DNA of 55,082 nucleotides, taken from contig JAFGNN010000062.1 of NCBI GenBank assembly GCA_016926955.1, forward strand, positions 1 to 55,082, in the 5' to 3' direction. The translations under genes were made by a program, and so were the position numbers. Below are positions 3,381 to 55,082 of this stretch, one piece after another (position 1 is the stretch's first letter; every line of letters starts with the position of its first letter). Source of the stretch: Spirochaetales bacterium. GTDB taxonomy: Bacteria > Spirochaetota > Spirochaetia > Treponematales > UBA12059. The notes beneath the pieces were generated by a model, which was not told the origin of the DNA, searched no databases, and saw only the letters and a program-made list of their open reading frames with translations.

Positions 3381-3648
3381 ACCACGGAGGGAAGAGGGAG
3401 GGAAGAATGGAGGGGTAAAATGGCGATGGAGGGAAACAAGGCTCCGGCGGGGGCCCTCAGGCATCGCGCACGGTTTGCTTGTCGCGGGAGCCGGAATGGG
3501 CAGCCCGCCGCCTCGGGGCGGTTTGATGAGCTGGATACTTCGGCGCCTGTTCCGCCGGGCTGCGCCCGGCGGTCCTCCCCACATTCCCGCTCCCCGTTCT
3601 TCAATCCTTCTTCTCCCTCTTCCCTCCCGAACTCCGTGCCTCCGTGGT
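3381..3648. repeat. Intergenic inverted-repeat element, copy 2
   Basis: The left arm ACCACGGAGGG starts at 3381 and the right arm CTCCGTGCCTCCGTGGT ends at 3648, followed by TTTTTT. The inner flanks GAAGAGGGAGGGAAG and CTTCTTCTCCCTCTTCCCTC also pair. The core holds a perfect 9-bp hairpin with a TGC loop at 3552-3572 (CCGCCGGGC/GCCCGGCGG). It lies between divergent genes, where a pure terminator role is less natural. I see no gene in 3310-3733. Confidence 0.8.
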
Positions 3649-3733
3649 TTTTTGGACTGTTTGGCGGAGCCGATTGTGGTAAACCCCCGCCGCCATGCGC
3701 CGATCATCAACGAAGAAGGAGCGGAGTCCGCCC

Positions 3734-4231
3734 ATGATCGAGAACACCTTGAACGACGTGCTCGCAGCCATGGACGCCGAGGCGGAACGCCTCGACGCCT
3801 TCGTCGAAGAGCAGAAGCGCCTGGGAGCCGCCGTGCGCGACCGGGACTGGCCCGGGACCGAGCGCGCCCTCCGCGAGCTCGAGGCCGCGTCGCGCCTCGT
3901 CCACGAGGCCGAGTCCGCCCGCCGCGCCGCCTGGTCCGCGCTCGCCCGCGAACTCGGCGACGATCCGTCCGAGCCCGCCGCCGTGCTGGCCCTCAAGGCG
4001 CCGGAACCCTGGCGCAGCGCCCTGCTCGACGGCCGGCGCCGCCTCCGGGTCTCCGCCATGCGCTCGCGCGTCGAGAACGTGGGACTCTCTGCCTGGACCG
4101 ACGCCGCCCGCGGCATGCTCGGCGCCGCCCTCGAGGAACTCATGCCCGAGCGCCGCGGCCGGATCTACGGCCGCCACGGCCGGACCGTCGCCTCGGGAGA
4201 CCGTCCCGTCGTCGTCGACGCGGCCTTCTAG
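3734..4231 (+). CDS. flgN: FlgN-like flagellar export chaperone
   Basis: A 165-residue, mostly helical, highly charged protein with no membrane segment. It sits 9 nt upstream of flgK, where FlgN, the chaperone for the junction proteins FlgK and FlgL, is usually encoded. N-terminal heptad-like helices (IENTLNDVLAAMDAEAERLD, with QKRLGAAVRDRDW after) match the FlgN pattern. The sequence family is poorly conserved, so the call leans on position. I took the ATG at 3734 because GGAG lies 7 nt upstream. An ATG at 3695 would add 13 residues. Confidence 0.6.
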   Translation: MIENTLNDVLAAMDAEAERLDAFVEEQKRLGAAVRDRDWPGTERALRELEAASRLVHEAESARRAAWSALARELGDDPSEPAAVLALKAPEPWRSALLDGRRRLRVSAMRSRVENVGLSAWTDAARGMLGAALEELMPERRGRIYGRHGRTVASGDRPVVVDAAF

Positions 4232-4240
4232 GAGCAGTCA

Positions 4241-6118: not shown

Positions 6119-6124
6119 CAAGCC

Positions 6125-7369
6125 ATGACCAGGGTATCCACCGATGCGATGAACGACGACATGCGCTACTGGCTGGGGCGCCGGGAAAGCGAGCTGCTCC
6201 GCGCCGAGAAGCGCATCTCGAGCCAGAACCGCCTCGACGAGCTCCGGACCGATCCGCTCGCCGCCGCGCGCGCGGTAAAGTACGACTCCTTCGTCGCGAG
6301 GCTCGAGCGCTTCGAGGAGAACGCCCGCTGGACGGCGGACTCCATGCGCGTCGCCGAGGGCCACGTGCGCTCGACGGTCGACGTCATGCAGCGCATCCGC
6401 GAACTCGCGGTCCAGGGCGCGCACGGCACCTTCGCCCCCGAGGACATGTCGTACATGGCCGCCGAGGTGGACGAGCTCCTCGCGGAACTCGTATCGCTCG
6501 GCAACGCGCGCGGCCCCGACGGCGAATTCGTCTTCGCCGGCAAGAAGGTGAACACCGAGCCCTTCCGCGCCGTCACCGGGTACGCGGTCGGCTCCGCTTC
6601 TCCCGCCACCGTCTCCGTCGAGTACCTGGGCGACTCAGGCGAGCGCCTCGCCGAGATCTCGCAGGGCGCCTACGCGGTCACGAACCAGGCCGGGTCCGAA
6701 GTCTTCTGGGCTGAGCGGACCCAGGTTTTCGCGACCTTCGACGCCTCGGCGTTCCGGGTGCTCGAGCCCTCGGTCGTCCGCGTCGACGGCATCGACATCG
6801 AGCTCGCCCCCGGCGACACGGTGCACGCCCTCGTGGCCAAGATCAACGGCTCCGGCGCCGCGGTCAAGGCTTCGCTCGATCCGGAGCGCGGCTCGCTGGC
6901 CCTCGAGACCACCGACGCCCGTGCGCTCCGCGTCCAGGACCTCTCCGGACAGGCGGTTTTCGCCGAGCTCGGCGTCGTCAAGGAAGGCGGCACGCCTCCG
7001 TACAACTGGGCCCCGAGCGCGCGCGTCTCGGGCGGCTCCCTCTTCGACGCGGTCATCTCCCTGCGCGACTCGCTCCGCAAGGGCGACCTCATCGAGACCG
7101 GCGGCCGCGTCCTCGCCTCGGTCGACGCGGCCATGGACAACTTGAACGAGCGCCTGGCCGAGCTCGGCGCCCGCGCGGAGCGTCTCGAACAGACCTCGCT
7201 CCGCCTCAACAAGGAGATCCCGGACGTCACCAGGCTCCTCGCCGCCGAGCGCGACGTGGACATGGCCTCCGCCATCTCCGACCTCAAGATGATGGAATTC
7301 GCCCGCGAAGCCGCCCTCGGCGTCTCGGGCCGCGTGCTTCCGCAGACCCTGCTCGATTTCCTGCGTTGA
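6125..7369 (+). CDS. flgL: Flagellar hook-associated protein 3
   Basis: The second hook-filament junction protein, a flagellin relative, 414 residues. The N-terminal flagellin-like helix is MTRVSTDAMNDDMRYWLGRR, followed by EKRISSQNRLDELRTDPLAA. The C-terminal half of the coiled coil includes SAISDLKMMEFAREAALGVS and ends in LPQTLLDFLR, as in other FlgL proteins. The middle domain carries the usual FVFAGKKVNTEPF segment. It is co-transcribed with flgK. Between its stop and fliW lies a GC-rich stem-loop and a possible CsrA site. Confidence 0.94.
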   Translation: MTRVSTDAMNDDMRYWLGRRESELLRAEKRISSQNRLDELRTDPLAAARAVKYDSFVARLERFEENARWTADSMRVAEGHVRSTVDVMQRIRELAVQGAHGTFAPEDMSYMAAEVDELLAELVSLGNARGPDGEFVFAGKKVNTEPFRAVTGYAVGSASPATVSVEYLGDSGERLAEISQGAYAVTNQAGSEVFWAERTQVFATFDASAFRVLEPSVVRVDGIDIELAPGDTVHALVAKINGSGAAVKASLDPERGSLALETTDARALRVQDLSGQAVFAELGVVKEGGTPPYNWAPSARVSGGSLFDAVISLRDSLRKGDLIETGGRVLASVDAAMDNLNERLAELGARAERLEQTSLRLNKEIPDVTRLLAAERDVDMASAISDLKMMEFAREAALGVSGRVLPQTLLDFLR

Positions 7370-7371
7370 CG

Positions 7372-7434
7372 ACGCCGCCCGCGCCGCATCCCTCGAAAGG
7401 GCGGGGCGGCGGGGCGCATTTTATGGAGGCATTA
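7372..7434 (+). promoter_or_regulatory. fliW leader: GC-rich stem-loop and possible CsrA site
   Basis: CGCCGCCC at the 5' end can pair with GGGCGGCG about 25 nt downstream. The ATGGAGG that follows overlaps the fliW Shine-Dalgarno and resembles the A-N-GGA core bound by CsrA, whose gene is two positions downstream. A CsrA-FliW feedback site is an inference. Confidence 0.35.
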
Positions 7435-7875
7435 ATGCGCGTGCAGACGAAAGCCTACGGTCCCCTCGACGTCGACGAGCGGCAACGGCTGGACTTTCCC
7501 AAGGGACTCCTCGGCTTCGAGCGCTATTCAGGCTTCGTCCTGATCGACGCGCCGCAGAAGCCCTTCCTCATCCTCCAGTCGCTCGAGGCGCCGGACCTGG
7601 CCTTCGTGCTGATCGATCCCTTCCTTTTCCGCCCCGACTACACCATCGACGTGGGTGACCGCGAACTCGCCTCGATCGGCCTCGCGCGCCCCGAGGATGC
7701 CCTCGTCTTCGCCATCGTGACCGTACCCCCGGAGGGCGGCGCGGTTACCGCGAACCTGATGGGACCGGTCATCGTCAACCGCGCCAACCGCAAGGGCATG
7801 CAGGCCGTGCTCACCGACCCGCGCTGGCAGGTCAAGCACGACATCGTCGCCGAGCTCGCGGCGAAAAAGGGCTAG
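7435..7875 (+). CDS. fliW: Flagellar assembly factor FliW (CsrA antagonist)
   Basis: FliW binds CsrA and flagellin in turn. When flagellin is exported, free FliW captures CsrA and lifts repression of flagellin translation. The 146-residue protein shows the family pattern FPKGLLGFERYSGFVLID, LQSLEAPDLAFVLIDPFLF and GPVIVNRANRKGMQAVL. The ATG at 7435 is preceded by GGAGG. Upstream in-frame ATGs at 7366 and 7423 would add a low-complexity tail or overlap flgL. The gene ends 5 nt before csrA, the classic partner arrangement. Confidence 0.94.
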   Translation: MRVQTKAYGPLDVDERQRLDFPKGLLGFERYSGFVLIDAPQKPFLILQSLEAPDLAFVLIDPFLFRPDYTIDVGDRELASIGLARPEDALVFAIVTVPPEGGAVTANLMGPVIVNRANRKGMQAVLTDPRWQVKHDIVAELAAKKG

Positions 7876-7880
7876 GTGCC

Positions 7881-8108
7881 ATGCTGGTTCTCTCGCGCAA
7901 GCTCAACGAGCGCATCATCGTAGGCGACGACATCGTCATCAGCGTGGTCGAGGTCCGCGGCGACCAGGTAAAGCTCGGCATCGAGGCGCCCCGCCACGTC
8001 AAGGTCTACCGGCAGGAAGTCTTCGACGCCATCCAGGACGAGAACCGCCGCGCCGCCGAAGCACCCGCGACCCTGCCCGACCTCGGTTTGCCGAACACCA
8101 AAGAGTAA
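7881..8108 (+). CDS. csrA: Carbon storage regulator CsrA
   Basis: RNA-binding dimer that blocks translation of targets with GGA in hairpin loops. In FliW-containing bacteria a main target is flagellin mRNA. The 75-residue protein has the canonical start MLVLSRKLNERIIVGDDIVI and the VKLGIEAPRHVKVYRQEVF block with the RNA-contacting arginines. The C-terminal tail is about 15 residues longer than in E. coli CsrA, as is common in species that carry FliW. Its TAA stop shares its last A with the left end of the next repeat element. Confidence 0.96.
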   Translation: MLVLSRKLNERIIVGDDIVISVVEVRGDQVKLGIEAPRHVKVYRQEVFDAIQDENRRAAEAPATLPDLGLPNTKE

Positions 8109-8488
8109 CCACGGAGACACGGAGTCACGGATGAGGAAGCGCGCGACGAGCGCGCGCTACAATCCATTCCTTGCCGAAAGCGGCGCGAAGCGACGCAGGC
8201 GCGGAGAAATTGGAGGAGTGGGAACAGGGGAAATTCCTGTTCCCTTCCATAAGCGCCATTCTTCCGCCTTCCCTCAGCGTCTCCGCGCCTCTGCGGTTTT
8301 TTCACGGTAGCGGCTCATGGACCAGGGGGCGAATGGCGCGGGCTTCGTCTCCAGCTCGCTTCGACTGTCCTGAATTGCCCGCCCTTCCGTTAGCGAAGCC
8401 TCCAGTCCCCGCAAGCGGTTCGTTTCAGCAGTCCACTCGGTCATTTCCTTTTTTTTCTCCCATCTCCGTGCCTCAGTGTCTCCGTGGT
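8108..8488. repeat. Intergenic inverted-repeat element, copy 3 (with nested copy)
   Basis: Left arm ACCACGGAGACACGGAG (8108-8124), right arm CTCCGTGCCTCAGTGTCTCCGTGGT without gaps at 8464-8488. A second, diverged pair lies inside: GACGCAGGCGCGGAG near 8192-8206 and CTCCGCGCCTCTGCGGT at 8281-8297, followed by TTTTTT. A 74-bp module at 8126-8199 recurs exactly, inverted, in copy 4. There is no gene between 8109 and 8543. The rest (8298-8463) is non-repetitive. Confidence 0.85.
8126..8199 (+). repeat. 74-bp module, exact copy in inverted orientation at 10585-10658
   Basis: Every base matches the reverse complement of 10585-10658. It contains a GCGCGC/GCGCGC hairpin and GGCGCGAAGCG. A diverged copy lies at 11517-11587. 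Confidence 0.95.
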
Positions 8489-14953: not shown

Positions 14954-16027
14954 ATGCCCTTTACGGTGCTTGTCATCAATCCAGGCTCGACATCGACCAA
15001 GATCGGCGCCTTCGAGGACGGGAAGGAACTGTTCACGGAGAGCGTGGCCCACTCGGCCGCCGATCTGGCTCCCTTCCATACAATCGCCTCGCAGTTCGAG
15101 TTCCGCGAGCGGCACATCCGCGACGCCCTCGCCGCGCGGGGTTTCGACCCGAAGCGGCTCGCCGCCGTCGTGGGCCGCGGCGGACTCTTGAAGCCGATTC
15201 CCGGCGGCGTCTACCGTGTCAACGAGGCCATGACCGCCACCATGCGGGAAGCCCGCTTCGGCGAGCACGCGTCCAATCTCGGCGCCCTGATCGCCGAGGC
15301 GCTCGGCAAGGAGTACGGCGTGCCGTCCTTCATCGCCGATCCGGTGGTGGTGGACGAACTCGAGCCGGTCGCCCGCGTGGCCGGCCACAAGGACTTCCGC
15401 CGCCTGTCCATATTCCACGCGCTCAACCAGAAGGCCTGCGCGCGCCGCTGGGCCCGGGAGAACGGCAAGGCCTACGAGGAAGCCGACCTCGTCGTTGTGC
15501 ACATGGGCGGCGGCGTCTCAGTCGGCCTCCACCGGAAGGGGCGCGTGGTCGACGTCAACCAGGCCTTGAACGGCGAAGGTCCCTTCAGCCCCGAGCGCTC
15601 GGGCACCCTGCCGGCCGGCGAGCTCGTCAAGCTCTGCTTCTCCGGCAGGAAGACCGAGAAGGAAGTGCTGAAGATGATCACCGGCCAGGGCGGCTTCGTA
15701 TCCCTGCTCGGCACCAACGACATGCGCGAGGTCGAGCGCCGCCACAGGGACGGCGACGCCGAGGCGACGCTCTATTACGAAGCCTTCATCTACAACATCG
15801 CCAAGTACGTGGGCGCCATGGCCGCCGCCAACTCGGGCAAGCTGGACGCCATCATCCTGACCGGAGGCATCGCCTACGGCAAGGATGTGGTGGACGGCCT
15901 CGTCGCCCGCTGCGGCTGGATCGCGCCGATCACGGTCTACCCGGGCGAGGGCGAGCTCGAGGCACTGGCGGCCGCGGGCATGCGCGCGCTCTCGGATCCT
16001 TCGTGCGTGATGGAGTACACGGCATGA
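14954..16027 (+). CDS. buk: Butyrate kinase
   Basis: Converts butyryl- or isobutyryl-phosphate plus ADP into the acid and ATP. The 357-residue length is typical. It shows the acetokinase-family N-terminus LVINPGSTSTKIG, a KPIPGGVYRVNEAM segment, the VVVHMGGGVSVGLH block, NGEGPFSPERSG and the C-terminal ILTGGIAYGKDVV. AAGGAG lies 6 nt before the ATG. The stop overlaps the ptb start, so the two enzymes are translationally coupled. With a 2-oxoacid oxidoreductase downstream, branched-chain acyl phosphates are likely substrates as well as butyryl-phosphate. Confidence 0.93.
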   Translation: MPFTVLVINPGSTSTKIGAFEDGKELFTESVAHSAADLAPFHTIASQFEFRERHIRDALAARGFDPKRLAAVVGRGGLLKPIPGGVYRVNEAMTATMREARFGEHASNLGALIAEALGKEYGVPSFIADPVVVDELEPVARVAGHKDFRRLSIFHALNQKACARRWARENGKAYEEADLVVVHMGGGVSVGLHRKGRVVDVNQALNGEGPFSPERSGTLPAGELVKLCFSGRKTEKEVLKMITGQGGFVSLLGTNDMREVERRHRDGDAEATLYYEAFIYNIAKYVGAMAAANSGKLDAIILTGGIAYGKDVVDGLVARCGWIAPITVYPGEGELEALAAAGMRALSDPSCVMEYTA

Positions 16028-16950
16028 TGACGAGCATCGAACAGGTCATTGAGGCCGCGCGCGCGGCCGGACGCAAGCGGATCGCGGTGGCCGCGGCCCA
16101 GGAGGAGAGCGCGCTCGAGGCCGCATGCGACGCCTTCAAGGCGGGACTCGCGGAGCCCATCCTGGTGGGCGACGGAGCGGCCATCAAGGCCGTCGCGGCC
16201 AGGGCGAAGCTCGACGTGTCGGCCTTCCGGATCGTGGAGGAGAAGGACAACGCGAAGGCCGCCGCCCTCGCCGTGGAGCTCGTGCGTTCCGGCGAGGCCG
16301 ACATGCTCATGAAGGGCATCATCGATACCTCAGTGCTGCTCAAGGCAGCGCTCAACAAGGAGAGCGGCCTCAACGCCGGCCGCCTCACGAGCCACGTGGG
16401 CGTCATCGAGTCGCCCCACTACCACAAGCTCCTCCTGGTCACGGACGCCGCCATCAACATCGCGCCCGATCTGGGCGCCAAGCTCGACCTCGTGGCCAAC
16501 GCGGTCTCGGTGGCCCAGGCGCTCGGCATCGAGCGGCCCAAGGTGGCCATGCTGGCGGCTGTCGAGAAGGTGAACGCCGAGAGGATGCCCTGCACGGCCG
16601 ACGCCGCCATCATCACCCAGATGAACCGCCGCGGGCAGGTCAAGGGCTGCGTGGTTGACGGCCCGCTCGCCCTCGACAACGCCATCAGCGCCGAGAGCGC
16701 GAAGATCAAGAAGATCGAGTCCGAGGTAGCCGGCGACGCCGACATCCTCGTGGCGCCGGACATCGAGGCGGGCAACATCCTCTACAAGTGCCTGCTGGAC
16801 CTGGGCGGCGCCAGGGGCTCCGGCCTCGTGGTCGGCGCAGCAAAGCCCATAGTCCTCACGAGCCGCGCCGACAGCGCGGCCACCAAGCTCGCGAGCATCG
16901 CGCTGGCCTCGCTCTGCGCCGCCCGCGAGCTTTCCGCCTGTTCAGGCTGA
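16024..16950 (+). CDS. ptb: Phosphate butyryltransferase
   Basis: Exchanges CoA of an acyl-CoA for phosphate, making the substrate of butyrate kinase. The 308-residue length fits the PTA/PTB family. Recognisable blocks are MLMKGIIDTSVLLKAALNKE, SHVGVIESPHYHKLLLVTDA (phosphate/CoA site) and INIAPDLGAKLDLVANAVSV. The ATG at 16024 overlaps the buk stop (ATGA). An ATG one codon later is equally possible. The 86-nt gap to the next gene has a small GGTTT/AAACC stem but no convincing promoter, so the oxidoreductase genes are probably co-transcribed. Confidence 0.93.
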   Translation: MMTSIEQVIEAARAAGRKRIAVAAAQEESALEAACDAFKAGLAEPILVGDGAAIKAVAARAKLDVSAFRIVEEKDNAKAAALAVELVRSGEADMLMKGIIDTSVLLKAALNKESGLNAGRLTSHVGVIESPHYHKLLLVTDAAINIAPDLGAKLDLVANAVSVAQALGIERPKVAMLAAVEKVNAERMPCTADAAIITQMNRRGQVKGCVVDGPLALDNAISAESAKIKKIESEVAGDADILVAPDIEAGNILYKCLLDLGGARGSGLVVGAAKPIVLTSRADSAATKLASIALASLCAARELSACSG

Positions 16951-17036
16951 CGACACTTCCGTCCGGACCGCGCCCTAGAACGGGACCGTCCGGGCTTCGA
17001 CAGGTTTTCTACAAACCGTTCCGAAGGAGCGAACGA

Positions 17037-17252
17037 ATGGCAGTGAAAGGAAAGACGGAGATCGACCGGGAGCGCTGCAAGGGCTGCCTCCTCTGCGTGC
17101 GGGCCTGCCCGACCAAGGTCCTCGACGTCGACGAGACGGCCAACTCGTGGGGCTACTACCCCGCGAAGGTGGCGAACCCCGACAAGTGCATCGCCTGCGG
17201 CAACTGCTACCTGGTCTGCCCGGACGTCGCCGTCACGGTCTACAAGCTGTAA
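17037..17252 (+). CDS. 2-oxoacid:ferredoxin oxidoreductase, ferredoxin-like delta subunit
   Basis: A 71-residue protein with two [4Fe-4S] motifs, CKGCLLCVRACP and CIACGNCYLVCP, carrying electrons from the TPP centre to free ferredoxin. GAAGGAG precedes the ATG by 7-8 nt. The order delta-alpha-beta-gamma occurs in both ketoisovalerate (Vor) and 2-oxoglutarate (Kor) oxidoreductases. The buk-ptb neighbourhood favours Vor. Confidence 0.9.
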   Translation: MAVKGKTEIDRERCKGCLLCVRACPTKVLDVDETANSWGYYPAKVANPDKCIACGNCYLVCPDVAVTVYKL

Positions 17253-17263
17253 GGGAGGCAAGC

Positions 17264-18331
17264 ATGGCTGAAGACATCCGCCTCATGAAGGGCAACGAGG
17301 CGATCGCCGAGGCGGCGATACGCGCCGGCTGCAGCGCCTATTTCGGTTACCCCATCACCCCGCAGAACGAGCTTACGGCCTACATGGCCCGGCACATGCT
17401 GACGCGCAAGCGCACCTTCATCCAGGCCGAGAGCGAAGTGTCCGCCATCAACATGGTGTACGGCGCTTCCGCCGCCGGCGCGCGCTCCATGACCTCGAGC
17501 TCCAGCCCGGGCGTCAGCCTCAAGCAGGAAGGCATTTCGTACATCTGCGGCGCCGACCTCCCGGCCGTCATCGTCAACGTTGCGCGCTCGGGCCCCGGCC
17601 TTGGCGGCATCAGCCCCGGGCAGGCCGACTACTTCCAGTCGACCCGCGGCGGCGGCCACGGCGACTACTACCACCTTGTCCTGGCGCCCAAGAGCGTCCA
17701 GGAGGCCGCGGACCTCACCTACGAGGCCTTCGACCTCGCCGACGAGTGGCGCATGCCCGCCATGATCCTCGCGGACGGCCTCATCGGCCAGATGATGGAG
17801 GGCGTGGTCCTTCCGGCCGATCGCGACCTTGCCAAGCTGCCGAAGCGTCCCTACGCAGTCGGCCACCAGGGCGAGACGGGGCGCGAGATCAACCATGTCA
17901 GCTCGATCAACCTGGTGCCGCTTGAGCTCGAGGCCTCCGTGCGCGCGCGCTTCGAGCGCTACGCGAAGATGAAGGAGACCCTCGTACGCTTCGAGGAAGT
18001 CCAGGTGGAGGACGCCGACCTGGTCCTGGTCGCCTACGGCACCTCGGCCCGCGTGTCGCTGGGCGCCCTGCAGGAAGCCCGCAAGGCCGGCCTCAAGGTG
18101 GGGCTTTTCAGGCCCATAACGCTCTGGCCCTTCCCCGAAAAGCGGATCGCCGAGCTTGCCGGCAAGGGAAAGCGCTTCCTGGCCGTCGAGATGAGCATGG
18201 GCCAGATGGTCGAGGACGTCCGCCTCGCCGTGAACGGCAAGGCGCCGGTCGACTTCTTCGGCCGCACCGGCGGCGTCATCCCCACCGAGGACGAGGTCCT
18301 CGAAGCCGCCCGCAAGATCCTGGGCAAGTAA
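17264..18331 (+). CDS. vorB: 2-oxoacid:ferredoxin oxidoreductase alpha subunit (Vor-type)
   Basis: Binds the 2-oxoacid and, with the beta subunit, oxidises it to acyl-CoA while reducing ferredoxin. The 355 residues begin IRLMKGNEAIAEAAIRAGCS and show GYPITPQNEL, the segment of the family that contacts the substrate carboxylate and TPP. ESEVSAINMVYGASAAGARS and SGPGLGGISPGQADY are also typical. The length matches the single-domain alpha subunit without the fused gamma domain. GGGAGG lies 6 nt upstream. Specificity (branched-chain against 2-oxoglutarate) cannot be fixed from sequence alone. Confidence 0.88.
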   Translation: MAEDIRLMKGNEAIAEAAIRAGCSAYFGYPITPQNELTAYMARHMLTRKRTFIQAESEVSAINMVYGASAAGARSMTSSSSPGVSLKQEGISYICGADLPAVIVNVARSGPGLGGISPGQADYFQSTRGGGHGDYYHLVLAPKSVQEAADLTYEAFDLADEWRMPAMILADGLIGQMMEGVVLPADRDLAKLPKRPYAVGHQGETGREINHVSSINLVPLELEASVRARFERYAKMKETLVRFEEVQVEDADLVLVAYGTSARVSLGALQEARKAGLKVGLFRPITLWPFPEKRIAELAGKGKRFLAVEMSMGQMVEDVRLAVNGKAPVDFFGRTGGVIPTEDEVLEAARKILGK

Positions 18332-46990: not shown

Positions 46991-48478
46991 TTATTCTTTC
47001 AGCAATTCGTTGATGCTCGCGGCGGCGCGGCGGCCTTCGCCCATGGCCAGGATCACGGTCGCCGCTCCCAGCACGATGTCGCCGCCGGCGTAGACCTTTT
47101 CCATCGAGGTCTTGCCCGTTTCGTCCACCGTGATGTTGCCCCGCCTGTTGACGTGGATCTCGGGCGTGGTGGCGGGAATCAGCGGGCTCGACGAATTGCC
47201 GATCGCCACGATCACCGCGTCCACCGCCATCGTCTCCTCGCTGCCCGCGACGGGCACAGGCCGGCGCCTGCCGGAGTCGTCCGGCTCGCCGAGCTCGTAG
47301 TGGAGCACTTCCATTTCCTTCACGCGGCCCTTCTCGTCCGGGATGATGCGCGTCGGATTGGTCAGCAGCTTGAAGATGATGCCCTCTTCCTTGGCGTGCG
47401 CCACTTCCTCGACGCGCGCGGGCATCTCGACCTCGGTGCGTCGGTAGACGATGTAGACGGTCTCGGCGCCGAGGCGCTTGGCCATGCGCGCGGCGTCCAT
47501 GGCGACGTTGCCGCCGCCGAGCACGGCCACGGTCCGGGCCTCGAAGATGGGGGTCGCGGCCTTGCCCTTCGCGTAGGCCTTCATGAGGTTGGCGCGGGTC
47601 AGGTACTCGTTGGCGCTGAACACGCCCACCAGGTTCTCGCCGGGTATGTCCATGAAGTTCGGCAGCCCCGCGCCCGAGCCGACGAAGGCGGCGTCGAAGC
47701 CGTCCTCGGCCAGCAGGTCTGCGAGCTTGCGGGTGCGGCCCACGAGGAAATTGGTCTCTACCGTGACGCCCATCTCGCGGAGCGCCTCGATCTCGTCCTG
47801 CACGATGGCCTTGGGCAGGCGGAATTCCGGGATGCCGTACATGAGGACGCCGCCGGGCTTGTGGAAGGCTTCGAAGATGGTCACCTCGTGGCCGGCCTTG
47901 CGCAGGTCCGCGGCTGCGCTGACGCCGGCGGGGCCGGAACCGACCACGGCCACCTTCTTGCCGGTTGCGGTCGCGGGTGCGTGCGTTTTCCGCGTTCCCT
48001 TCTCGCGCTCGAGGTCGGCGACGAAGCGTTCGACGCGGCCGATGGAGACGGCCTTGTCGACGCTCTTGAGGCTTTTGCCCAGGGTGCAGGGCGCCTGGCA
48101 CTGGCTTTCCTGGGGACAGACCCGGCCGCAGACGGCGGGCAGGAGGCTCGATTCCTTGATTACCGCGAGCGAGCCCTCGAAGTCGCCCGCGGCGGCCTTG
48201 GCCAGGAAGCGGGGAATGTCGATGCCGACGGGGCAACCCGCTACGCAGGGCGCGGTCTTGCACTGGAGGCAGCGGCTAGCTTCGACCATGGCCTGCTCGG
48301 CCGAATACCCGATGGCCACCTCGTTCATGTTGCATACGCGGACGGACGGGTCCTGGCTCGGCATCTCCTGGAGCGGGAGGGCCATGCGCTCGCGGGGGCC
48401 GAGGGTCTTGCCTTCAATCGAAGCGAGCGTTGCGGCGGCCGCGGCGCGGAGTTCTTCCTTGGTGGCGTGGTGGCTCAT
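46991..48478 (-). CDS. nfnB: NfnB-like FAD/Fe-S subunit of NADH-dependent ferredoxin:NADP+ oxidoreductase
   Basis: A 495-residue subunit resembling the small subunit of glutamate synthase (GltD family). The N-terminal domain holds two [4Fe-4S] motifs, CLQCKTAPCVAGCPVGIDIP and CGRVCPQESQCQAPC. FAD- and NAD(P)-binding folds follow with VAVVGSGPAGVSAAADL and VAVLGGGNVAMDAARMAKRL, and GDIVLGAATVILAMGEGRRA closes the FAD site. Paired with NfnA it would transfer electrons reversibly between NADPH, NADH and ferredoxin, with flavin bifurcation. Two nt separate it from the preceding nfnA. A stand-alone GltD role is less likely without gltB. Confidence 0.86.
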   Translation of the reverse strand: MSHHATKEELRAAAAATLASIEGKTLGPRERMALPLQEMPSQDPSVRVCNMNEVAIGYSAEQAMVEASRCLQCKTAPCVAGCPVGIDIPRFLAKAAAGDFEGSLAVIKESSLLPAVCGRVCPQESQCQAPCTLGKSLKSVDKAVSIGRVERFVADLEREKGTRKTHAPATATGKKVAVVGSGPAGVSAAADLRKAGHEVTIFEAFHKPGGVLMYGIPEFRLPKAIVQDEIEALREMGVTVETNFLVGRTRKLADLLAEDGFDAAFVGSGAGLPNFMDIPGENLVGVFSANEYLTRANLMKAYAKGKAATPIFEARTVAVLGGGNVAMDAARMAKRLGAETVYIVYRRTEVEMPARVEEVAHAKEEGIIFKLLTNPTRIIPDEKGRVKEMEVLHYELGEPDDSGRRRPVPVAGSEETMAVDAVIVAIGNSSSPLIPATTPEIHVNRRGNITVDETGKTSMEKVYAGGDIVLGAATVILAMGEGRRAAASINELLKE

Positions 48479-48480
48479 CT

Positions 48481-49332
48481 TCACTTCACCTCTCCGGCGA
48501 TGCCGAGGTCCAGGTGGCAGACGTGGTGGGCTTCCTTCTCCTGCGTCTTGTAGGCGCCGAGGCGCGAGAGCATGTTGTCCCAGTCCACGAGGTGGCCGTC
48601 GAACTCCGGGCCGTCCACGCAGACGAACTTGGTCTCGTTCCCGACCGTGACGCGGCAGCCGCCGCACATGCCGGTGCCGTCTATCATGATGGTGTTGAGG
48701 GATACGACGGTCGGAACCTTGAAGGGCCGCGTGGTCTCGGCGCAGAACTTCATCATGATCGGAGGGCCGATGGCCACCGCCAGCTGGGGCGGGTTCGGGC
48801 CCTCGCAGGCTTCCTTGAGGGGCTCGGTGACCAGGGCCTTGCGGCCGTAGCTGCCGTCGTCGGTGACGATGACGAGCTCGTCGGCGAGGGCTCGCATCTC
48901 GTCCTCCATGACGATGAGCTCCTTCGTGCGCGCGCCGATGATCACCTTCACCGTGTTGCCCGCGGCCTTGAGGGCCTGGACGATGGGGTGCAGGGGCGCG
49001 ACGCCGATGCCGCCGCCCACGCAGACCACCGTGCCCACCTTCTCGATATGGGTGGGGCGGCCGAGGGGGCCGAGCACGTTGGCTATGGAATCGCCGACCG
49101 CCATATCGGCTAGGCGGTGCGTGGTGGCGCCGACGGCCTGGAACACGATGTCCACGGTGCCGGCGACCGGGTCCGCGTCGGCGATGGTGAGCGGAATTCG
49201 CTCGCCGAAGTCGGAGTCGAGCTGGACGATGATGAACTGTCCCGCTTTTCTTTCGCGGGCGATATTGCGCGCCTCGAATTTCATGCGGAATACTTCTTCC
49301 GACAGCTGGCGCTTTTCCAGTATCCGGTGCAT
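48481..49332 (-). CDS. nfnA: NfnA-like FAD/[2Fe-2S] subunit of NADH-dependent ferredoxin:NADP+ oxidoreductase
   Basis: A 283-residue ferredoxin-NADP reductase-type protein. AGQFIIVQL and RIPLTIAD give FAD binding, VGTVVCVGGGIGVAPLHPI the NAD fold, and the C-terminal [2Fe-2S] site lies in DGTGMCGGCRVTV followed by KFVCVDGPEFDGHLVDW. This is the layout of NfnA and of dihydroorotate dehydrogenase electron-transfer subunits. The directly following nfnB settles it. GGAG precedes the ATG. In an anaerobe it would balance the ferredoxin made by the 2-oxoacid oxidoreductase. Confidence 0.87.
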   Translation of the reverse strand: MHRILEKRQLSEEVFRMKFEARNIARERKAGQFIIVQLDSDFGERIPLTIADADPVAGTVDIVFQAVGATTHRLADMAVGDSIANVLGPLGRPTHIEKVGTVVCVGGGIGVAPLHPIVQALKAAGNTVKVIIGARTKELIVMEDEMRALADELVIVTDDGSYGRKALVTEPLKEACEGPNPPQLAVAIGPPIMMKFCAETTRPFKVPTVVSLNTIMIDGTGMCGGCRVTVGNETKFVCVDGPEFDGHLVDWDNMLSRLGAYKTQEKEAHHVCHLDLGIAGEVK

Positions 49333-49540: not shown

Positions 49541-50038
49541 ATGAAAGACCTCAAGGGAAGGGCGGCGCGCTTCGTCCTCCTTCTGGGGGCCTGGCTCGTC
49601 CTCACGGACGCGCGGAAACCGGACGAATGGATCGCGGGCATCGTCGTCGCCCTGCTGGCCGCCGTCCTGCCGCTTTTTCCGCGTCCGGTCCTGGGCGACC
49701 TCAAGCTCTCGCCGAAGGCCCTCTTCGGCATGATCGCGTACGCCGCGGTCTTCATGAAGGCGCTCGTCATGTCGAACCTCGACGTCGCCTTCCGCGTCCT
49801 CCACCCGAAGCTGCCGATCAACCCGGGGATCGTCGCGATCCGCACGCGGCTCGTCACCCCGCTGGGGCGCCTCCTGCTGGCCAATTCCATCACCCTGACC
49901 CCCGGCACCATCACGGTGGAGACGAAGGGCGACACCTTCTACATCCACTGGATCAACGTCGCCGAGCGCGACGTCGGGGCGGCCACCAAGGCCATCGTCG
50001 GGGAATTCGAAAAGCGGCTGGAGGTGTTCTGTGGCTGA
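49541..50038 (+). CDS. mrpE: Na+/H+ antiporter subunit E (MrpE/MbhA)
   Basis: First gene of a seven-gene operon, 165 residues with two membrane helices. The ending SITLTPGTITVETKGDTFYI, with HWINV after, is the family mark. AAGGAG lies 8-9 nt upstream of the ATG. The 3' end overlaps subunit F by 8 bp. Confidence 0.92.
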   Translation: MKDLKGRAARFVLLLGAWLVLTDARKPDEWIAGIVVALLAAVLPLFPRPVLGDLKLSPKALFGMIAYAAVFMKALVMSNLDVAFRVLHPKLPINPGIVAIRTRLVTPLGRLLLANSITLTPGTITVETKGDTFYIHWINVAERDVGAATKAIVGEFEKRLEVFCG

Positions 50039-50294
50039 AACCGTCTTCCTCGTCGCCTCCGGCATCGCGCTGCTCGCGCTCGTGCTCGCCGGACTCCGGA
50101 TGGCGCTCGGACCGACCGCGGTCGACCGGACGGTCGCGCTCGACGGCATGACCATCATCGCCCTTTCGCTGATCGCGGCCTGGGCCTGGTTCTCGGGGAG
50201 GGGCATCTACCTCGACGTGGCGCTGGTGTACGGCCTCGCGAGTTTCGCCGGCGTCGTCGCCATCGCGCGCTACCTGGAAGGGGGCCTCAAGTGA
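50031..50294 (+). CDS. mrpF: Na+/H+ antiporter subunit F (MrpF/MbhB)
   Basis: An 87-residue protein of three helices, starting at a GTG. RMALGPTAVDRTVALDGMTI is the MrpF signature. The stop overlaps the GTG of subunit G. Confidence 0.92.
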   Translation: MAETVFLVASGIALLALVLAGLRMALGPTAVDRTVALDGMTIIALSLIAAWAWFSGRGIYLDVALVYGLASFAGVVAIARYLEGGLK

Positions 50295-50683
50295 ACGGGA
50301 CCATCGGCGCTTTCCTGGCCCTCGGCGGCTCGGTCTTCCTCCTCCTGGCCTCCATAGGCCTCATCCGCATGCCCGACTACTACAACCGGATGCAGACCGG
50401 GACCAAGGCCACCACGCTCGGTTCCATCCTCTTCCTGCTTGGCGTCGGCGTCATGCGGCCGGAGTGGCTCGGCAAGCTGCTGCTCCTCGTCGGTTTCGTC
50501 GTGCTCACGAACCCGGTCAGCTCGCACGCTCTCGCGCGCGCCGCGCACAGGATCCGTGACCGCCTCGGCAAGCTCGAGAAGGCGGTGCTCGCGGTCGACG
50601 CCCTGGCGGATGACGAGGCCGCGGAGACCGCAGCTGACCGGTCGGATACGGATGCCGGGAACGGGGAGGCGAAGCATGCTTGA
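50291..50683 (+). CDS. mrpG: Na+/H+ antiporter subunit G (MrpG/MbhC)
   Basis: A 130-residue protein of three helices. GLIRMPDYYNRMQTGTKATT and LTNPVSSHALARAAHR are typical MrpG blocks. An acidic C-terminal tail of about 35 residues (LGKLEKAVLAVDALADDEAA onward) is an extension. The start is GTG. Confidence 0.92.
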   Translation: MNGTIGAFLALGGSVFLLLASIGLIRMPDYYNRMQTGTKATTLGSILFLLGVGVMRPEWLGKLLLLVGFVVLTNPVSSHALARAAHRIRDRLGKLEKAVLAVDALADDEAAETAADRSDTDAGNGEAKHA

Positions 50684-50960
50684 CGGCAGGACGACCCTCG
50701 ACCTGGTCATCGGCTTCCTCGGGCTCCTCATGATCCTCGCGGCGCTCTGGTCGGTGCTCGCGAAGCGCCTGCTCAGCTCGGTGCTGCTCTCGGGCGGCGT
50801 GAGCCTGCTCGCCAGTCTCGTGTTCCTCGCGCTCGGCGCCCCCGACGTGGCCATGACCGAGGCCGCCATCGGCTCGGCCCTGACCACCATGGTGTTCCTC
50901 TACTCGCTCTCGCGCATGAAGGTGGAGTGCGACGCGAGCGAAGACGGAGGCCGCTCATGA
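50676..50960 (+). CDS. MbhD-like membrane subunit (DUF4040)
   Basis: A 94-residue protein of three helices (LVIGFLGLLMILAALWSVLA, SSVLLSGGVSLLASLVFLAL and a third with AIGSALTTMVFLYSL). GAPDVAMTEAAIGSAL is the DUF4040/MbhD motif, which corresponds to a C-terminal piece of MrpA. It overlaps mrpG by 8 bp and the next gene by 4 bp. Confidence 0.85.
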   Translation: MLDGRTTLDLVIGFLGLLMILAALWSVLAKRLLSSVLLSGGVSLLASLVFLALGAPDVAMTEAAIGSALTTMVFLYSLSRMKVECDASEDGGRS

Positions 50961-51667
50961 TGAAGAAAATCCTCCTCCTCGCCGCGATCGCGCTGCTCGC
51001 GTTCGCGCTCTGGCCCTTCGTCCGCGACGTGGGCCTCGCGGAGCCCGGTGCTCTCGCGACGGCCTACCTCGAGCAAGGGCCGGCCGAGCTCGGCACCGCC
51101 AACGTGGTAACCGCCATCGTGGTGAGCTACCGCGGCTTCGACACGCTCGGCGAGGTCACCGTGCTCTTCACGGCGACCGCCGGCGTCGGCGGGCTCCTCG
51201 CGCGCCGCAAGGGCCACGGGAAGAAGAAGGCCGCGGAGCGCGGCGCGAGCGACGCGTCGGAAATCCTCAAGACGGCCTCGCGCCTGCTTTCGCCGCTCCT
51301 CGTGCTGTTCGGCGTCTACATCTTCCTGCACGGCCACCTGACGCCCGGCGGCGGCTTCCAGGGCGGCGTGGTCATCGCCACGGCGGTGCTGATCGGCCTG
51401 CTCGCGGATCCGGAAGCCGGACTCGCGCACGGCGTCATGCACCTCGTCGAGGGCCTCTCGGGCTTCGCCTACGTCGCGCTCGGCGCGGCGGGACTCTGGT
51501 TCACCGGGGTTCAGGAGGGCTTCCTCGACCCGCGCTTCCTGCCGCTCGGCGAGCTCGGCCGCCTCGCGAGCGCGGGCGCCATCCCGGTCATCTACTCGCT
51601 CGTGGGGCTCAAGGTCGGCGCCGAGCTGACCGGCATCCTCGACGCCATGAAGGAGGACGCCGAATGA
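50957..51667 (+). CDS. Fused MbhE-MrpB (MbhF) antiporter subunit
   Basis: A 236-residue fusion. Residues 1-80 resemble MbhE (GTANVVTAIVVSYRGFDTLG, then EVTVLFTATAGVGGL), and residues from about 105 are MrpB (LLVLFGVYIFLHGHLTPGGG, then FQGGVVIATAVLI). In the archaeal Mbh complex these are two genes, here one. The start ATG overlaps the previous stop and the end overlaps mrpC. Confidence 0.85.
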   Translation: MMKKILLLAAIALLAFALWPFVRDVGLAEPGALATAYLEQGPAELGTANVVTAIVVSYRGFDTLGEVTVLFTATAGVGGLLARRKGHGKKKAAERGASDASEILKTASRLLSPLLVLFGVYIFLHGHLTPGGGFQGGVVIATAVLIGLLADPEAGLAHGVMHLVEGLSGFAYVALGAAGLWFTGVQEGFLDPRFLPLGELGRLASAGAIPVIYSLVGLKVGAELTGILDAMKEDAE

Positions 51668-52026
51668 GCGACATCAACATCGTCACCCTGATCGGGGTCG
51701 CTCTGCTCCTGATCGGATTTTACGGCGCCCTGTCGCGGCCCAACATCGTCAAGATGATCGTCGGCTTCGCGATCGCGGACACTGGCGTCAACATGATCAT
51801 CGTCGCGGTCGGCTACCTGCCCGGCCGCACCGCGCCCATCCTCGACTCGGCCGCCGACGCCGCGGGCGCCGCCGCCCGCATGGTGGACCCCATTCCCCAG
51901 GCGCTCGTGCTGACCGCCATCGTCATCGGCCTCGCCGTCACCGCCCTCATGCTGTCCTTCGCGGTCCGCATGCGGCGCTCGGGCGGCGGCATGTCCATCG
52001 ACACTTACGGAGAGCAGAAATGGTGA
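51664..52026 (+). CDS. mrpC: Na+/H+ antiporter subunit C (MrpC/MbhG, NuoK-like)
   Basis: A 120-residue NuoK-like protein. GFYGALSRPNIVKMIVGFAI and DPIPQALVLTAIVIGLAVTA are the MrpC hallmarks, with the DP-PQALVLTAIVI segment at the ion path. It overlaps its two neighbours by 4 and 7 bp. Confidence 0.92.
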   Translation: MSDINIVTLIGVALLLIGFYGALSRPNIVKMIVGFAIADTGVNMIIVAVGYLPGRTAPILDSAADAAGAAARMVDPIPQALVLTAIVIGLAVTALMLSFAVRMRRSGGGMSIDTYGEQKW

Positions 52027-55000
52027 CGCCGCTCGCGATCTTCGCCGCCTTCCTCGCGACGGGCTTCCTGCTGCCCCTCGCCGACAAGCTCGGCCGCCGG
52101 CTGTCCGCGACGCTCTTCTGGGCGCTGCTCGCCGGCTTCGCGGGACTCGCCGCGTACTACCTCGCGTCCTTCGTCGCGGCGCCGGGCACGCTCGAAATCT
52201 ACACGGGCGGCTTCGAGCCGCCGCTCGTCATCGCCCTCAGGCTCGGCCTCGAGGAGTCCGCCGCCCTGGCCGCCATCGCCGCGGTCGCCCTGCTCTCGGC
52301 CTTCTCGATGCGCAAGGCCCTCTTCGCGGCGCCCGTCTCCGGCATGATGACCTTCCTCATGCTGGTCATGGGCCTCTCGGGCCTCGTCCTGACGCGCGAC
52401 CTTTTCAACCTCTTCGTCTTCCTCGAGATATCCGGCATCGCGGGCTACGCCCTGCTCGGCTTCGACGACCGGAGGCTGGCCATGTCGGCGGCCTTCAAGT
52501 ACATGGTCGCGGGCGGCATCGCGAGCGCCGCGTACCTGGTCGGCGTCATCTACCTTTACCGCCTGACCGGCACGCTCAACCTCGACCTCATGATCGGCTC
52601 CGCCGGGCTCGAGGGCGCGGCGGGCGCCGCGGCGGTCTTCTTCGTGCTGGCGGCCCTGCTCGTCGAGCTCAAGCCCTTCCCCGCGAACGGCTGGGCCATC
52701 GACGCCTACGAGGCGGCCAACCCGGGCCTCGGCGCCCTGTTCTCGGGCGCCCAAGCCACGGCCATGCTCTTCGCCCTCTACAAGATCTTCCCGCTGCTCA
52801 CCGACGCGCACCTCTCGGTGGTCATGTGGGCGGGCATCGTCACCTTCGCGGGCTCCAACCTGGTGGGCCTCCGCCAGAAGGCCACGCGGCGCATGTTCGG
52901 CTACTCGTCGGCGGGCCAGGTCGGCTTCGTCTCGGCCGCGCTCGCCTTCGGCGCGCGCTACGTGGAGGGAAGCGGGTTCGCCTGGCTCGTCGCGGGCGGC
53001 CTCCTCGCCAACCACCTCCTGGCCAAGACCGGCCTCTTTCTCCTCTCGGCGGCCTTCGAGCGTGACGGGGACGCTTCGATGAAGGGAAGGCCGGGGACCA
53101 TCGTCGCGGTCGCGGCGGGCGTCCTCGTGGCGGCCCTCGTCGGCCTGCCTCCCTTCCCGGCCTTCTGGGCCAAGTGGGACCTGGTCCGCGTCGCCCTCGC
53201 CACGCGCGAGTACGCCTTCGTGGCCCTCATCGGCGCGGGCGGCCTCTTCGAGGCCTGGTACCTCTTCTCCTGGCTCGTCCGCCTCGTCAAGGGCGGCGCG
53301 GACGAGACGCCAGAGTCCGCTCCGGCCGCTGTCCTCCGCGTCGGCGCCGAGGGCATCGGCCCGGTGCTGGCGGCTTCAGGTCTCGCGGCGCTCGGCGGCC
53401 TGTCCGCCTGGACGCGCGGCTTCACCGACCCGCTCTTCTGGGCGCCGCTGGCGGGGGGACTCCTCTTCCTCGCCCTCGACTGGCTGCCCGGCAAGCTTAA
53501 GGCCCTGCTGGCCACCGCGGCCATCGCGGCGTTCGGGTATTTCGCCCTGCCTGCCATGTCGGACTTCCAGAAGCTCTTCGCCCTCATGATCCTGGGCGGC
53601 GGCGCGCTCCACGCCTTCGCGGGCGGCTACCTCAAGGGCCGCCGCGCCGGGCACTTCCCGCTCTACGTCCTGACGGTGCTGGCCCTGGGCTACGCCCTCG
53701 TGGCGGAGTCCGCGCTCGGCTTCTTCATGGCCTGGGAGCTCATGGCGCTCGGCGGCTACTTCCTCGTGCTCAAGAGCGCGAAGGGCCGCTCGGCTTCGAT
53801 GATCTACCTCGCCTTCTCGATCGGCGGCGCCTTCCTCATGATGGCGGGCCTGCAGACAGGCGGCGGATGGATAGGCGGCGCGGCGCTTTCGCCAGCGGCA
53901 CTCGTCCTGGTCGGGCTCGGCCTCCTCGGCAAGCTCGGCGCCTTCGGCCTCCACGTCTGGCTGCCGGGCGCCTACGCCGAGGCCGCCGACGACTTCTCGA
54001 GCTTCTTCTCGGCCTCGCTCTCCAAGATCGCGATATTCGCCCTGATGGCGGCCATGGCGGTCTTCGGCGAAGCCCTGCCGGGCGGCGAGCTCGCGTGGCG
54101 CGTCGTGGGCTGGGTGGGCATACTCGGCGCCGTGCTCGGCGCGCTTGCGGCCATCTTCCAGGAGGACGCCAAGTACGCGCTGGCCTTCAGCTCGATGGGC
54201 CAGATGGGCTACATCCTGGCGGCCCTGGCCATGCGCGACCAGATGGGCTGGACCACGGCGCTCTACCTCGCGGCCACGCACTTCCTCTACAAGGGCATGA
54301 TGTGGCTCTCGGTCGCGGGCGCGTCCTTGCGCACCGGGACCAGGACCATGTACCTGATGGGCGGCCTCATCAAGCGCATGCCGCTCAGCTTCGTGTCCTT
54401 CCTCGTGGGCATCATCGCGCTCTCGGGCGTGCCCCCGCTCACGGGCTTCGGCGGCAAGTGGCTGCTCTACCACTCGCTCATCGCCAAGGGCTGGTACTTC
54501 GAGGCGGCGGCCAGCTTCCTCGCCTCCGGCATCGCCTTCCTCTACCTCTACCGGATGATCCACTCGATCTTCCTCGGGCAGCCGAAGGACGAGCACCGGA
54601 CGGTCAAGGAAGCGCCGATCTGGCTCATCCTGCCGCAGCTCCTCCTGCTCGCGGCCGTCATCGTCTTCTCGGTCTTCCCGCGGCTCATCCTCGACCCGAT
54701 CATGGCGGTCGTCGGGGCGCGGTACCCGGCCGCGCTCTTCGTCTTCGAGGGACAGACCCTCGTCTCCTCGCTCGGCTACTGGAACGGCTTCCTCACCATC
54801 ATCGTGGTGGTCGTGGTCTTCGTCCTGACCCTGATCTGGATGCTCATGAACCTCCGGAAGCCGCGGCTCGTGAAGCAGTTCAACATCGTCTTCGCGGCCG
54901 AGCGCCCGTTCCGCCCCGAGACCACGCACTTCGCCTTCGACTTCTTCGCCCCGTACCGCCGCGCGCTCGGCTTCCTGGTGCGCGGCCGATCGGAAAAAGC

Positions 55001-55082
55001 CTGGACCGCCGTCGCGGGTCTCGCGACGAGCGTCGCGGGCGCGATCCGCCGGCTCTATACCGGCAACGGCCAGACCTACGCG
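52020..55082 (+). CDS. Giant tandem-module antiporter-like subunit (MrpD/MbhH/NuoL-type), 3' end outside window
   Basis: An open frame of at least 1,021 codons from the ATG at 52020, overlapping mrpC, without a stop to the window edge. Two proton-channel modules lie in tandem. Module 1 (to about residue 500) has LVELKPFPANGWAIDAYEAA (about 213), GYSSAGQVGF and NHLLAKTGLFLL. Module 2 (from about 540) has GKLGAFGLHVWLPGAYAEAA (about 637), EDAKYALAFSSMGQMGY, THFLYKGMMWL and ALSGVPPLTGFGGKW. The C-terminal part (from about 917) has another helix and a tail ending at a HyfB/NuoL-like RRLYTGNGQTYA. Each module keeps the channel lysines. Mrp and Mbh have these subunits as separate genes. Confidence 0.86.
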   Translation, partial: MVTPLAIFAAFLATGFLLPLADKLGRRLSATLFWALLAGFAGLAAYYLASFVAAPGTLEIYTGGFEPPLVIALRLGLEESAALAAIAAVALLSAFSMRKALFAAPVSGMMTFLMLVMGLSGLVLTRDLFNLFVFLEISGIAGYALLGFDDRRLAMSAAFKYMVAGGIASAAYLVGVIYLYRLTGTLNLDLMIGSAGLEGAAGAAAVFFVLAALLVELKPFPANGWAIDAYEAANPGLGALFSGAQATAMLFALYKIFPLLTDAHLSVVMWAGIVTFAGSNLVGLRQKATRRMFGYSSAGQVGFVSAALAFGARYVEGSGFAWLVAGGLLANHLLAKTGLFLLSAAFERDGDASMKGRPGTIVAVAAGVLVAALVGLPPFPAFWAKWDLVRVALATREYAFVALIGAGGLFEAWYLFSWLVRLVKGGADETPESAPAAVLRVGAEGIGPVLAASGLAALGGLSAWTRGFTDPLFWAPLAGGLLFLALDWLPGKLKALLATAAIAAFGYFALPAMSDFQKLFALMILGGGALHAFAGGYLKGRRAGHFPLYVLTVLALGYALVAESALGFFMAWELMALGGYFLVLKSAKGRSASMIYLAFSIGGAFLMMAGLQTGGGWIGGAALSPAALVLVGLGLLGKLGAFGLHVWLPGAYAEAADDFSSFFSASLSKIAIFALMAAMAVFGEALPGGELAWRVVGWVGILGAVLGALAAIFQEDAKYALAFSSMGQMGYILAALAMRDQMGWTTALYLAATHFLYKGMMWLSVAGASLRTGTRTMYLMGGLIKRMPLSFVSFLVGIIALSGVPPLTGFGGKWLLYHSLIAKGWYFEAAASFLASGIAFLYLYRMIHSIFLGQPKDEHRTVKEAPIWLILPQLLLLAAVIVFSVFPRLILDPIMAVVGARYPAALFVFEGQTLVSSLGYWNGFLTIIVVVVVFVLTLIWMLMNLRKPRLVKQFNIVFAAERPFRPETTHFAFDFFAPYRRALGFLVRGRSEKAWTAVAGLATSVAGAIRRLYTGNGQTYA

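Follow-up and report, generated by a model that had tools for sequence, protein, structure and literature searches.

A spirochaete contig breaks off within an operon of twelve genes for a complex I-like ion pump, apparently powered by NADPH or NADH via a built-in flavoprotein

The MBS complex of Pyrococcus furiosus (formerly Mbx) has been discussed as a link, in evolution, between hydrogenases and complex I (PMC7684303). MBS is without the Nqo4 quinone residues H38 and Y87 and keeps two of the four NiFe cysteines, which are dispensable for activity. Its MbsN subunit receives electrons from ferredoxin, and its proximal cluster is held by three MbsJ cysteines, leaving an open iron that reduces polysulfide (PMC7684303). 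Thermotoga maritima and Thermoanaerobacter likewise have Mbs-like operons, the bacterial MBX operons of 12 or 13 genes, which have been proposed to connect ferredoxin with sulfur or NADP+ (PMC9431562, PMC3608648). Here we describe an operon that begins at position 49541 of contig JAFGNN010000062.1 from a Spirochaetales bacterium. This stretch of 55,082 nucleotides, the window, is an entire contig (C81) of a 94-contig assembly, which we call its own genome. The window ends inside the operon, which comprises twelve genes for a complex I-like ion pump and seems to have NADPH or NADH as its driver by way of a built-in flavoprotein.

Two further described systems come close. Thermosphaera aggregans has an MBX-type operon with a SudA/GltD-like gene that was suggested to be NADPH-linked (among PMC3608648 and PMC3035292); this system is archaeal, its dehydrogenase is a separate gene, and the available text states no fusion. 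In Endoriftia, a sulfur-oxidising gammaproteobacterium and Riftia symbiont, a putative Mrp-Mbx complex was grouped with the reductive tricarboxylic acid cycle, its function and direction left unsettled. The likeness of this complex to ours comes from its published description.

From 49541 to the window end, Pfam and the list of open reading frames (ORFs) give seven overlapping genes on the plus strand, with families in the order MNHE, MrpF_PhaF, PhaG_MnhG, MbhD, MbhE+MnhB (one protein), Oxidored_q2 and Proton_antipo_M (two stretches):

49541..50038, plus strand: MrpE/MbhA-like subunit (PF01899 MNHE, 7.2e-38)
50031..50294, plus strand: MrpF/MbhB-like subunit (PF04066, 2.4e-16)
50291..50683, plus strand: MrpG/MbhC-like subunit (PF03334, 1.9e-25)
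50676..50960, plus strand: MbhD-like subunit (PF13244, 5.5e-19)
50957..51667, plus strand: fusion of MbhE and MrpB/MbhF (PF20501, 1.6e-10, and PF04039, 7.6e-23, in one protein)
51664..52026, plus strand: MrpC/MbhG-like subunit (PF00420, 5.4e-20)
52020..55082, plus strand: fusion of MbsH and MbsH', both antiporter-like pump modules; truncated where the contig stops (PF00361, two stretches)

Families, strand and overlaps bear out the order E-F-G-D-(E+B)-C-H given by an earlier sequence-only reading of the window. The family assignments are computed; in the mbh lettering, they correspond to mbhABCDEFGH with E and F (MrpB) fused. That reading counted one fusion. The MbhE-MrpB fusion stands, but the giant last gene is a second one and not a single MrpD, because residues 8-313 match MbsH (PDB chain 6u8y_H) and residues 608-1031 match MbsH' (6u8y_X). 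For the MbhE-MrpB gene the ORF list has a GTG start at 50927, while ATG 50957 agrees with the start of a same-genus homologue (L008). Since the window is the entire contig and ends inside the H-H' gene, this gene is incomplete. Its product is 95% identical over 1021 residues to the copy in the same-genus genome G001, which is 1038 residues at full length, and lacks the last 17 residues relative to it.

The sequence-only reading proposed extending the contig rightward in search of MbhJ-N or MbxJ-N homologues, and named an operon that stops after the giant gene, with no redox subunits, as the outcome that would speak against it. In G001, H-H' is followed by M-J-K-L-(N+NfnL), that is, a NuoH/MbsM-like protein, NuoB/J, NuoC/K, NuoD/L and a protein of 592 residues, so that J, K, L, M and N are all found. 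The operon ends there, because genes for enzyme I of the phosphotransferase system (PTS) and then an EngA-type GTPase come next. The window's own genome carries the same five genes at one end of contig C73, with 93-98% identity to G001; on the G001 stretch the end of C81 falls at 7821 and that of C73 at 7829, leaving 7 bp between them, and the two contigs are not joined. A stand-alone Mrp antiporter operon closing with the giant gene, as the window by itself would suggest because it ends at that gene, is in effect refuted by the five redox and anchor genes downstream in G001 and on C73.

This gene order recurs well outside the genus. We scanned named genomes with the L alignment and kept 80 loci among the matches listed; the same scan returned at least 563 relatives, which is not a family size, and one of its two patterns could match complex I proteins. 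All twelve genes stand in one order and on one strand in 48 of the 80 loci, a further 31 are cut loci whose contiguous part follows the same order, and a single locus has G and MbhD swapped. On these counts the order is conserved beyond chance. Hosts among the kept loci include Spirochaetota, Cloacimonadota, Bacteroidota, Chlorobiota, Calditrichota, Neomarinimicrobiota, Aminicenantes, Fermentibacterota, alpha-, beta- and gammaproteobacteria, and others. Metagenome bins make up the majority, and strains are represented by Tropicimonas, Thiothrix, Aliiruegeria and Celeribacter. Within the phylum the distribution is patchy, with J detected at ≤1e-45 in 12 of 296 sampled genomes.

The subunits place the complex beside MBS. 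The best PDB match of J is MBS 6u8y (7e-66, versus 1.7e-22 for MbhJ), as it is for L (2e-93, versus 4.5e-44 for MbhL), for M (9e-47) and for both H-H' halves; K was identified by Pfam only. Thus every redox or pump subunit compared with the PDB is closest to 6u8y, the NfnL half of the last protein excepted. The complex shares with MBS the Mrp module, the H and H' pair, M, J, K, L and N, as well as the three-cysteine proximal cluster, and both are without the H38/Y87 quinone residues. Unlike in MBS, H and H' are fused, MbhE is fused to MrpB and N is fused to an Nfn large subunit; both leftover MbsL cysteines are missing in the window's clade, and the MbsH TM8 lysine is missing too.

The most distinctive component is the last protein. 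Its N-terminal 116 residues have 6u8y_N as their best NuoI-type PDB match (2.8e-22), and the rest matches the Nfn large subunit 5jca_L (2.6e-85). Foldseek finds the NADP(H)-bound NfnI large subunit 5jca_L as the nearest fold to a structure model of the fused subunit (pLDDT 82, pTM 0.79), with a TM-score of 0.88 by target. The C-terminal part shares FAD, the NADP(H) site and two [4Fe-4S] clusters with the Nfn large subunit (NfnL/SudA, 5jca_L) and the glutamate synthase small subunit. Unlike Nfn, it sits behind an MbsN/NuoI-like two-cluster domain, and half of its homologues have a glutamate in place of the NADPH-binding arginine pair. The alignment of the fused subunit has 89 rows. With 9 incomplete ones excluded, the 16 cluster cysteines (eight MbsN-type and eight Nfn-type) are invariant in every one of the remaining 80. 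The operons of the surveyed loci contain no Nfn small-subunit partner, which would bring a second FAD and a [2Fe-2S] cluster. The sequence-only reading expected the complex to oxidise the ferredoxin made by the 2-oxoacid oxidoreductase. This is unsupported: N is fused to an Nfn-type pyridine-nucleotide flavoprotein, and that fusion speaks for NADPH on the cytoplasmic side.

The fusion already has a database entry. NCBIfam NF010590 (PRK13984, "putative oxidoreductase"), a model with no assigned function, covers residues 3-590 at 679 bits, below its cut-off of 946, and PRK13984 is not named in the open-access literature that we searched. One of 14 control genomes exceeds the NF010590 cut-off, and T. 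maritima is among those matching at any score. The N-NfnL fusion may therefore be present in T. maritima MBX, whose N subunit we judged through the NF010590 scan only.

The nucleotide-binding motif divides the family. Where the second strand of the pyridine-nucleotide Rossmann fold ends, 40 of the 80 full-length rows read YRR and 40 are of a Glu type, in which the glutamate stands two residues past a mostly small residue. By an established rule for folds of this kind, arginine at this position favours NADPH and glutamate favours NADH. The window genome has YRR, as does the window's own NfnB. With shorter rows included, 91 rows comprise 44 Glu, 40 YRR and 7 assigned to neither; for the 80 named loci alone the figures are 43, 31 and 6. 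Placed on the L tree (86 rows), these states call for a minimum of 3 changes, where shuffles give about 26; this suggests at least three switches of the family between NADPH- and NADH-type forms. The mainly Glu clade comprises Pseudomonadota, Bacteroidota, Neomarinimicrobiota and some Spirochaetota, with the YRR members L086 and L116 inside it; the mainly YRR part holds the window's family, Cloacimonadota and others, and L035 stands apart.

At the other end of the putative electron path, J and L argue about what the acceptor could be. MbsJ numbering follows PMC7684303, and NiFe positions come from that source and the alignment to MbsL. The L alignment has 92 rows (91 plus MBS) and the J alignment 86 including MBS; some rows are duplicate copies of one genome obtained by two routes (for example L008/L043). 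In J of the window genome the three ligands equivalent to MbsJ C28, C93 and C123 are kept, and the non-ligand C25 is a glycine. Across the alignment the ligands are cysteine in 81, 83 and 83 of the 86 rows, and the others are gaps or X, save one M and one V.

The sequence-only reading also suggested looking for the NiFe cysteines, and none of the four is present in L of the window genome. The position of MbsL C85 is C in 64, A in 26 and S in 2 of the 92 rows; that of C385 is Y in 58, C in 33 and a gap in one. A [NiFe] membrane-bound hydrogenase (Mbh) would have the same Mrp-type gene order, but the missing cysteines and the far weaker matches to MbhJ and MbhL than to MbsJ and MbsL already contradict it. 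Of the two kinds of downstream genes that had been anticipated, the Mbx/Mbs type thus fits, whereas the Mbh type does not.

The quinone site is gone as well. In L of the window genome, T stands at H38 and V at Y87 of Nqo4, and these replacements hold in 90 and 92 of the 92 rows, respectively. A quinone-reducing complex I with the NfnL module in place of NuoEFG could explain why NCBIfam has J and L scoring above the NuoB and NuoD models (NF005012 and NF004739) and why some hosts are respiring proteobacteria. We consider it very unlikely, given the loss of both headgroup residues and the state of menaquinone genes in the window's own genome, which gives no MqnA/D-type match and a MenA-type match below the cut-off only. 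The operon has no NuoEFG module for NADH. Three NuoF-like matches occur in the own genome; that on C77 is rnfC itself, and those on C92 and C30 have FeFe-hydrogenase matches nearby. L and J searches of that genome return a single match each and no second complex I-like enzyme.

The pump modules were compared over 62 long H-H' rows, with the pump residues named by helix number. Labels of transmembrane helices (TM) follow the MbsH/MbsH' residues of PMC7684303. In the first half (H), the TM5 Glu, TM7 Glu and TM12 Lys are invariant and the TM11 His is kept in 57 rows. The TM8 Lys (MbsH K250) is replaced in 61 rows (T 31, A 14, S 10, G 2, L 2, P 1, E 1); K survives in L102 alone, and the E is that of L035. 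The second half (H') keeps the TM5 Glu in 62 rows, TM7 Lys in 61, TM8 Lys in 59 and TM11 His in 61, with Lys (48) or Arg (14) in TM12. The conserved pump residues suggest that Na+ or H+ is pumped.

Given these results, we see an even chance that the twelve gene products form an NADPH-linked respiratory ion pump of the Mbs/Mbx type, with a rebuilt electron entry and a non-quinone acceptor, most likely sulfane sulfur. NADPH would be oxidised at the FAD of the module fused to N. Electrons would then travel along four [4Fe-4S] clusters, first two of Nfn type and then two of MbsN type, and reach the cluster that three cysteines of J hold. A small acceptor (polysulfide or a related S-S bond) would be reduced in the J/L/M chamber, and this reduction would move ions through M, the H-H' fusion and the Mrp module. 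The reaction would be reversible in principle, and a high ion gradient could yield NAD(P)H. The sequences themselves show the gene order, the fusions, the homologies, the cluster ligands, the lost NiFe and quinone residues and the two coenzyme motifs; from these we infer that the subunits assemble into one complex, as well as its electron path, substrate, acceptor, direction, ion and coupling. As established for complex I, MBH and MBS, members of this superfamily need electrons to arrive in the J/L/M chamber for coupling. For this reason, and because the J ligands are near-invariant, electrons probably reach the chamber here too. The flavoprotein fused to N argues for NAD(P)H at the other end of the chain, and the loss of every NiFe ligand and quinone residue makes a small oxidised sulfur acceptor likely, as in MBS. 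The sulfur acceptor is a best guess by analogy and the weakest step of this mechanism.

The main rival is an ion-translocating ferredoxin:NADP+ oxidoreductase, Rnf-like but for Rnf's use of NAD+, in which ferredoxin would dock on N and NADP+ would be reduced at the Nfn-type FAD. It would suit the fermentative setting, given that the window encodes a 2-oxoacid:ferredoxin oxidoreductase, and ferredoxin:NAD(P)+ activity was an earlier proposal for MBX (PMC3608648, PMC3035292). We think it unlikely, though a serious contender: with both substrates on the peripheral arm, the J/L/M chamber and the conserved J cluster, whose three ligands are nearly invariant, would have no role, and the genome already holds both Rnf (rnfC, 1.8e-147, on C77) and Nfn. 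The FAD of the Nfn large subunit bifurcates in Nfn. An ordinary ferredoxin-driven MBS could accordingly use the fused module, closest to that subunit by fold, as a second input or as a confurcating or bifurcating flavin taking ferredoxin and NADPH together. The surveyed operons speak against this by their want of a small-subunit partner, and we hold it to be quite improbable.

Several points weigh against an NADPH-linked pump that reduces sulfur. MbsN takes electrons from ferredoxin in MBS (PMC7684303), and in the comparisons made here we see no sign that a ferredoxin site has been lost; the T. maritima MBX operon, too, has been discussed as ferredoxin-driven (PMC9431562). The first pump module has no TM8 Lys in nearly all rows, so its pumping may differ. 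Nfn genes adjoin the operon in the window's genus but, within the flanks covered, were found near it in 2 of the 80 loci overall. Finally, a survey of 541 flanking ORFs from 88 loci, grouped by single-linkage clustering, with Pfam run on 9 proteins and part of the clusters identified, recognised no acceptor or sulfur gene linked to the operon.

The Nfn genes are divergent from the operon:

48481..49332, minus strand: NfnA-like (small) subunit, adjoining the operon and kept in G001 (PF10418, 1.1e-13)
46991..48484, minus strand: NfnB-like (large) subunit (Fer4_20, 1.8e-38; Pyr_redox_2, 7.3e-36)

The NfnB-like protein and the C-terminal part of the last subunit in the operon are homologues (36% identity in L031). 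We set aside NfnAB linkage as a general conserved clue, one of its two loci being from the same genus. At 14954-18331 the window has acetate-kinase-type, phosphotransacylase-type and 2-oxoacid:ferredoxin oxidoreductase (alpha-type) genes in a row, as in 2-oxoacid fermentation. A role for the operon as a simple Rnf replacement was likewise rejected, since the own genome carries rnfC and RnfC matches above the cut-off turn up in 130 of the 146 genomes that were sampled within the order.

Contig C47 of the own genome (L009, ~3630-8399) bears another Mrp operon, distinct from this one (E, F, G, MbhE+B, C, D) and preceded by P-II-like and PTS EIIA genes; a search of 16 kb with the subunits of the twelve-gene operon revealed no Nuo-type redox subunit there. 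Elsewhere, flank neighbours include rubrerythrin-like, CBS, dihydroorotate-dehydrogenase-like, Crp, Rex-like and ArsR-like proteins. A rubrerythrin/ferritin-like protein of ~150 residues follows the fused subunit directly in clusters of 18 and 6 loci (for example L032 12960-13415, L084 12928-13422 and L065 12990-13439) and is absent in the window's genus. The dihydroorotate-dehydrogenase-like protein adjoins the operon in 13 loci, mostly of Bacteroidota (for example L106 13214-14191), and Crp-type regulators lie near it in 13 loci, mostly divergent upstream. A Rex-like regulator, with a DNA-binding N-terminus and a CoA_binding Rossmann domain, stands just upstream in L102 (1840-2469), and such regulators occur in Aminicenantes and Fermentibacteria; similar ORFs in L103 and L107 are assigned by resemblance to L102, the one scanned for domains. 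This neighbour would fit control by NADH/NAD+.

More divergent relatives also exist. L035 (G017), L036 (G011) and G015 represent a deeper variant with ~50% identity in L; in L035 and L036 the MbsL-type cysteines are retained, as is the counterpart of MbsJ C25, and L035 has a Glu-type fused subunit as well. The L- and J-like proteins of L040 (G010), L041 (G020) and G012 are further removed, at 26-28% identity in L, and in L040 and L041 stand beside antiporter-like subunits in another gene order. By sequence, theirs appears to be a different group-4-like complex.

Bacterial Mbx operons, the Endoriftia Mrp-Mbx complex and the SudA-linked MBX of Thermosphaera are already in print, and the fusion family has its function-less NCBIfam model. 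Our searches of open-access literature, outside which most subscription journals lie, returned no description of the NAD(P)H module as a fusion, of the two forms of its coenzyme site or of the near-fixed twelve-gene operon. A wider proposal, which we regard as speculative and rather unlikely, is that the family is a second, independent pyridine-nucleotide wiring of machinery of the complex I kind. With an Nfn-type flavoprotein where complex I has NuoEFG, the Mbs core would act as a quinone-free, reversible, ion-motive NAD(P)H:sulfane oxidoreductase, running forward in fermenters and in reverse in sulfur oxidisers. If so, fermenters like this spirochaete would pump ions while oxidising NADPH, whereas in sulfur oxidisers such as Thiothrix, Sedimenticola and Thiosymbion the complex would run backwards, using an ion gradient and reduced sulfur to make NADH. 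The split between NADPH- and NADH-type motifs offers a clean, testable prediction. A bacterial branch with an MBS core and a fused pyridine-nucleotide module would be a parallel to complex I and not its ancestor. It would offer quinone-less anaerobes an NADPH-driven pump and sulfur oxidisers a possible direct route to NAD(P)H.

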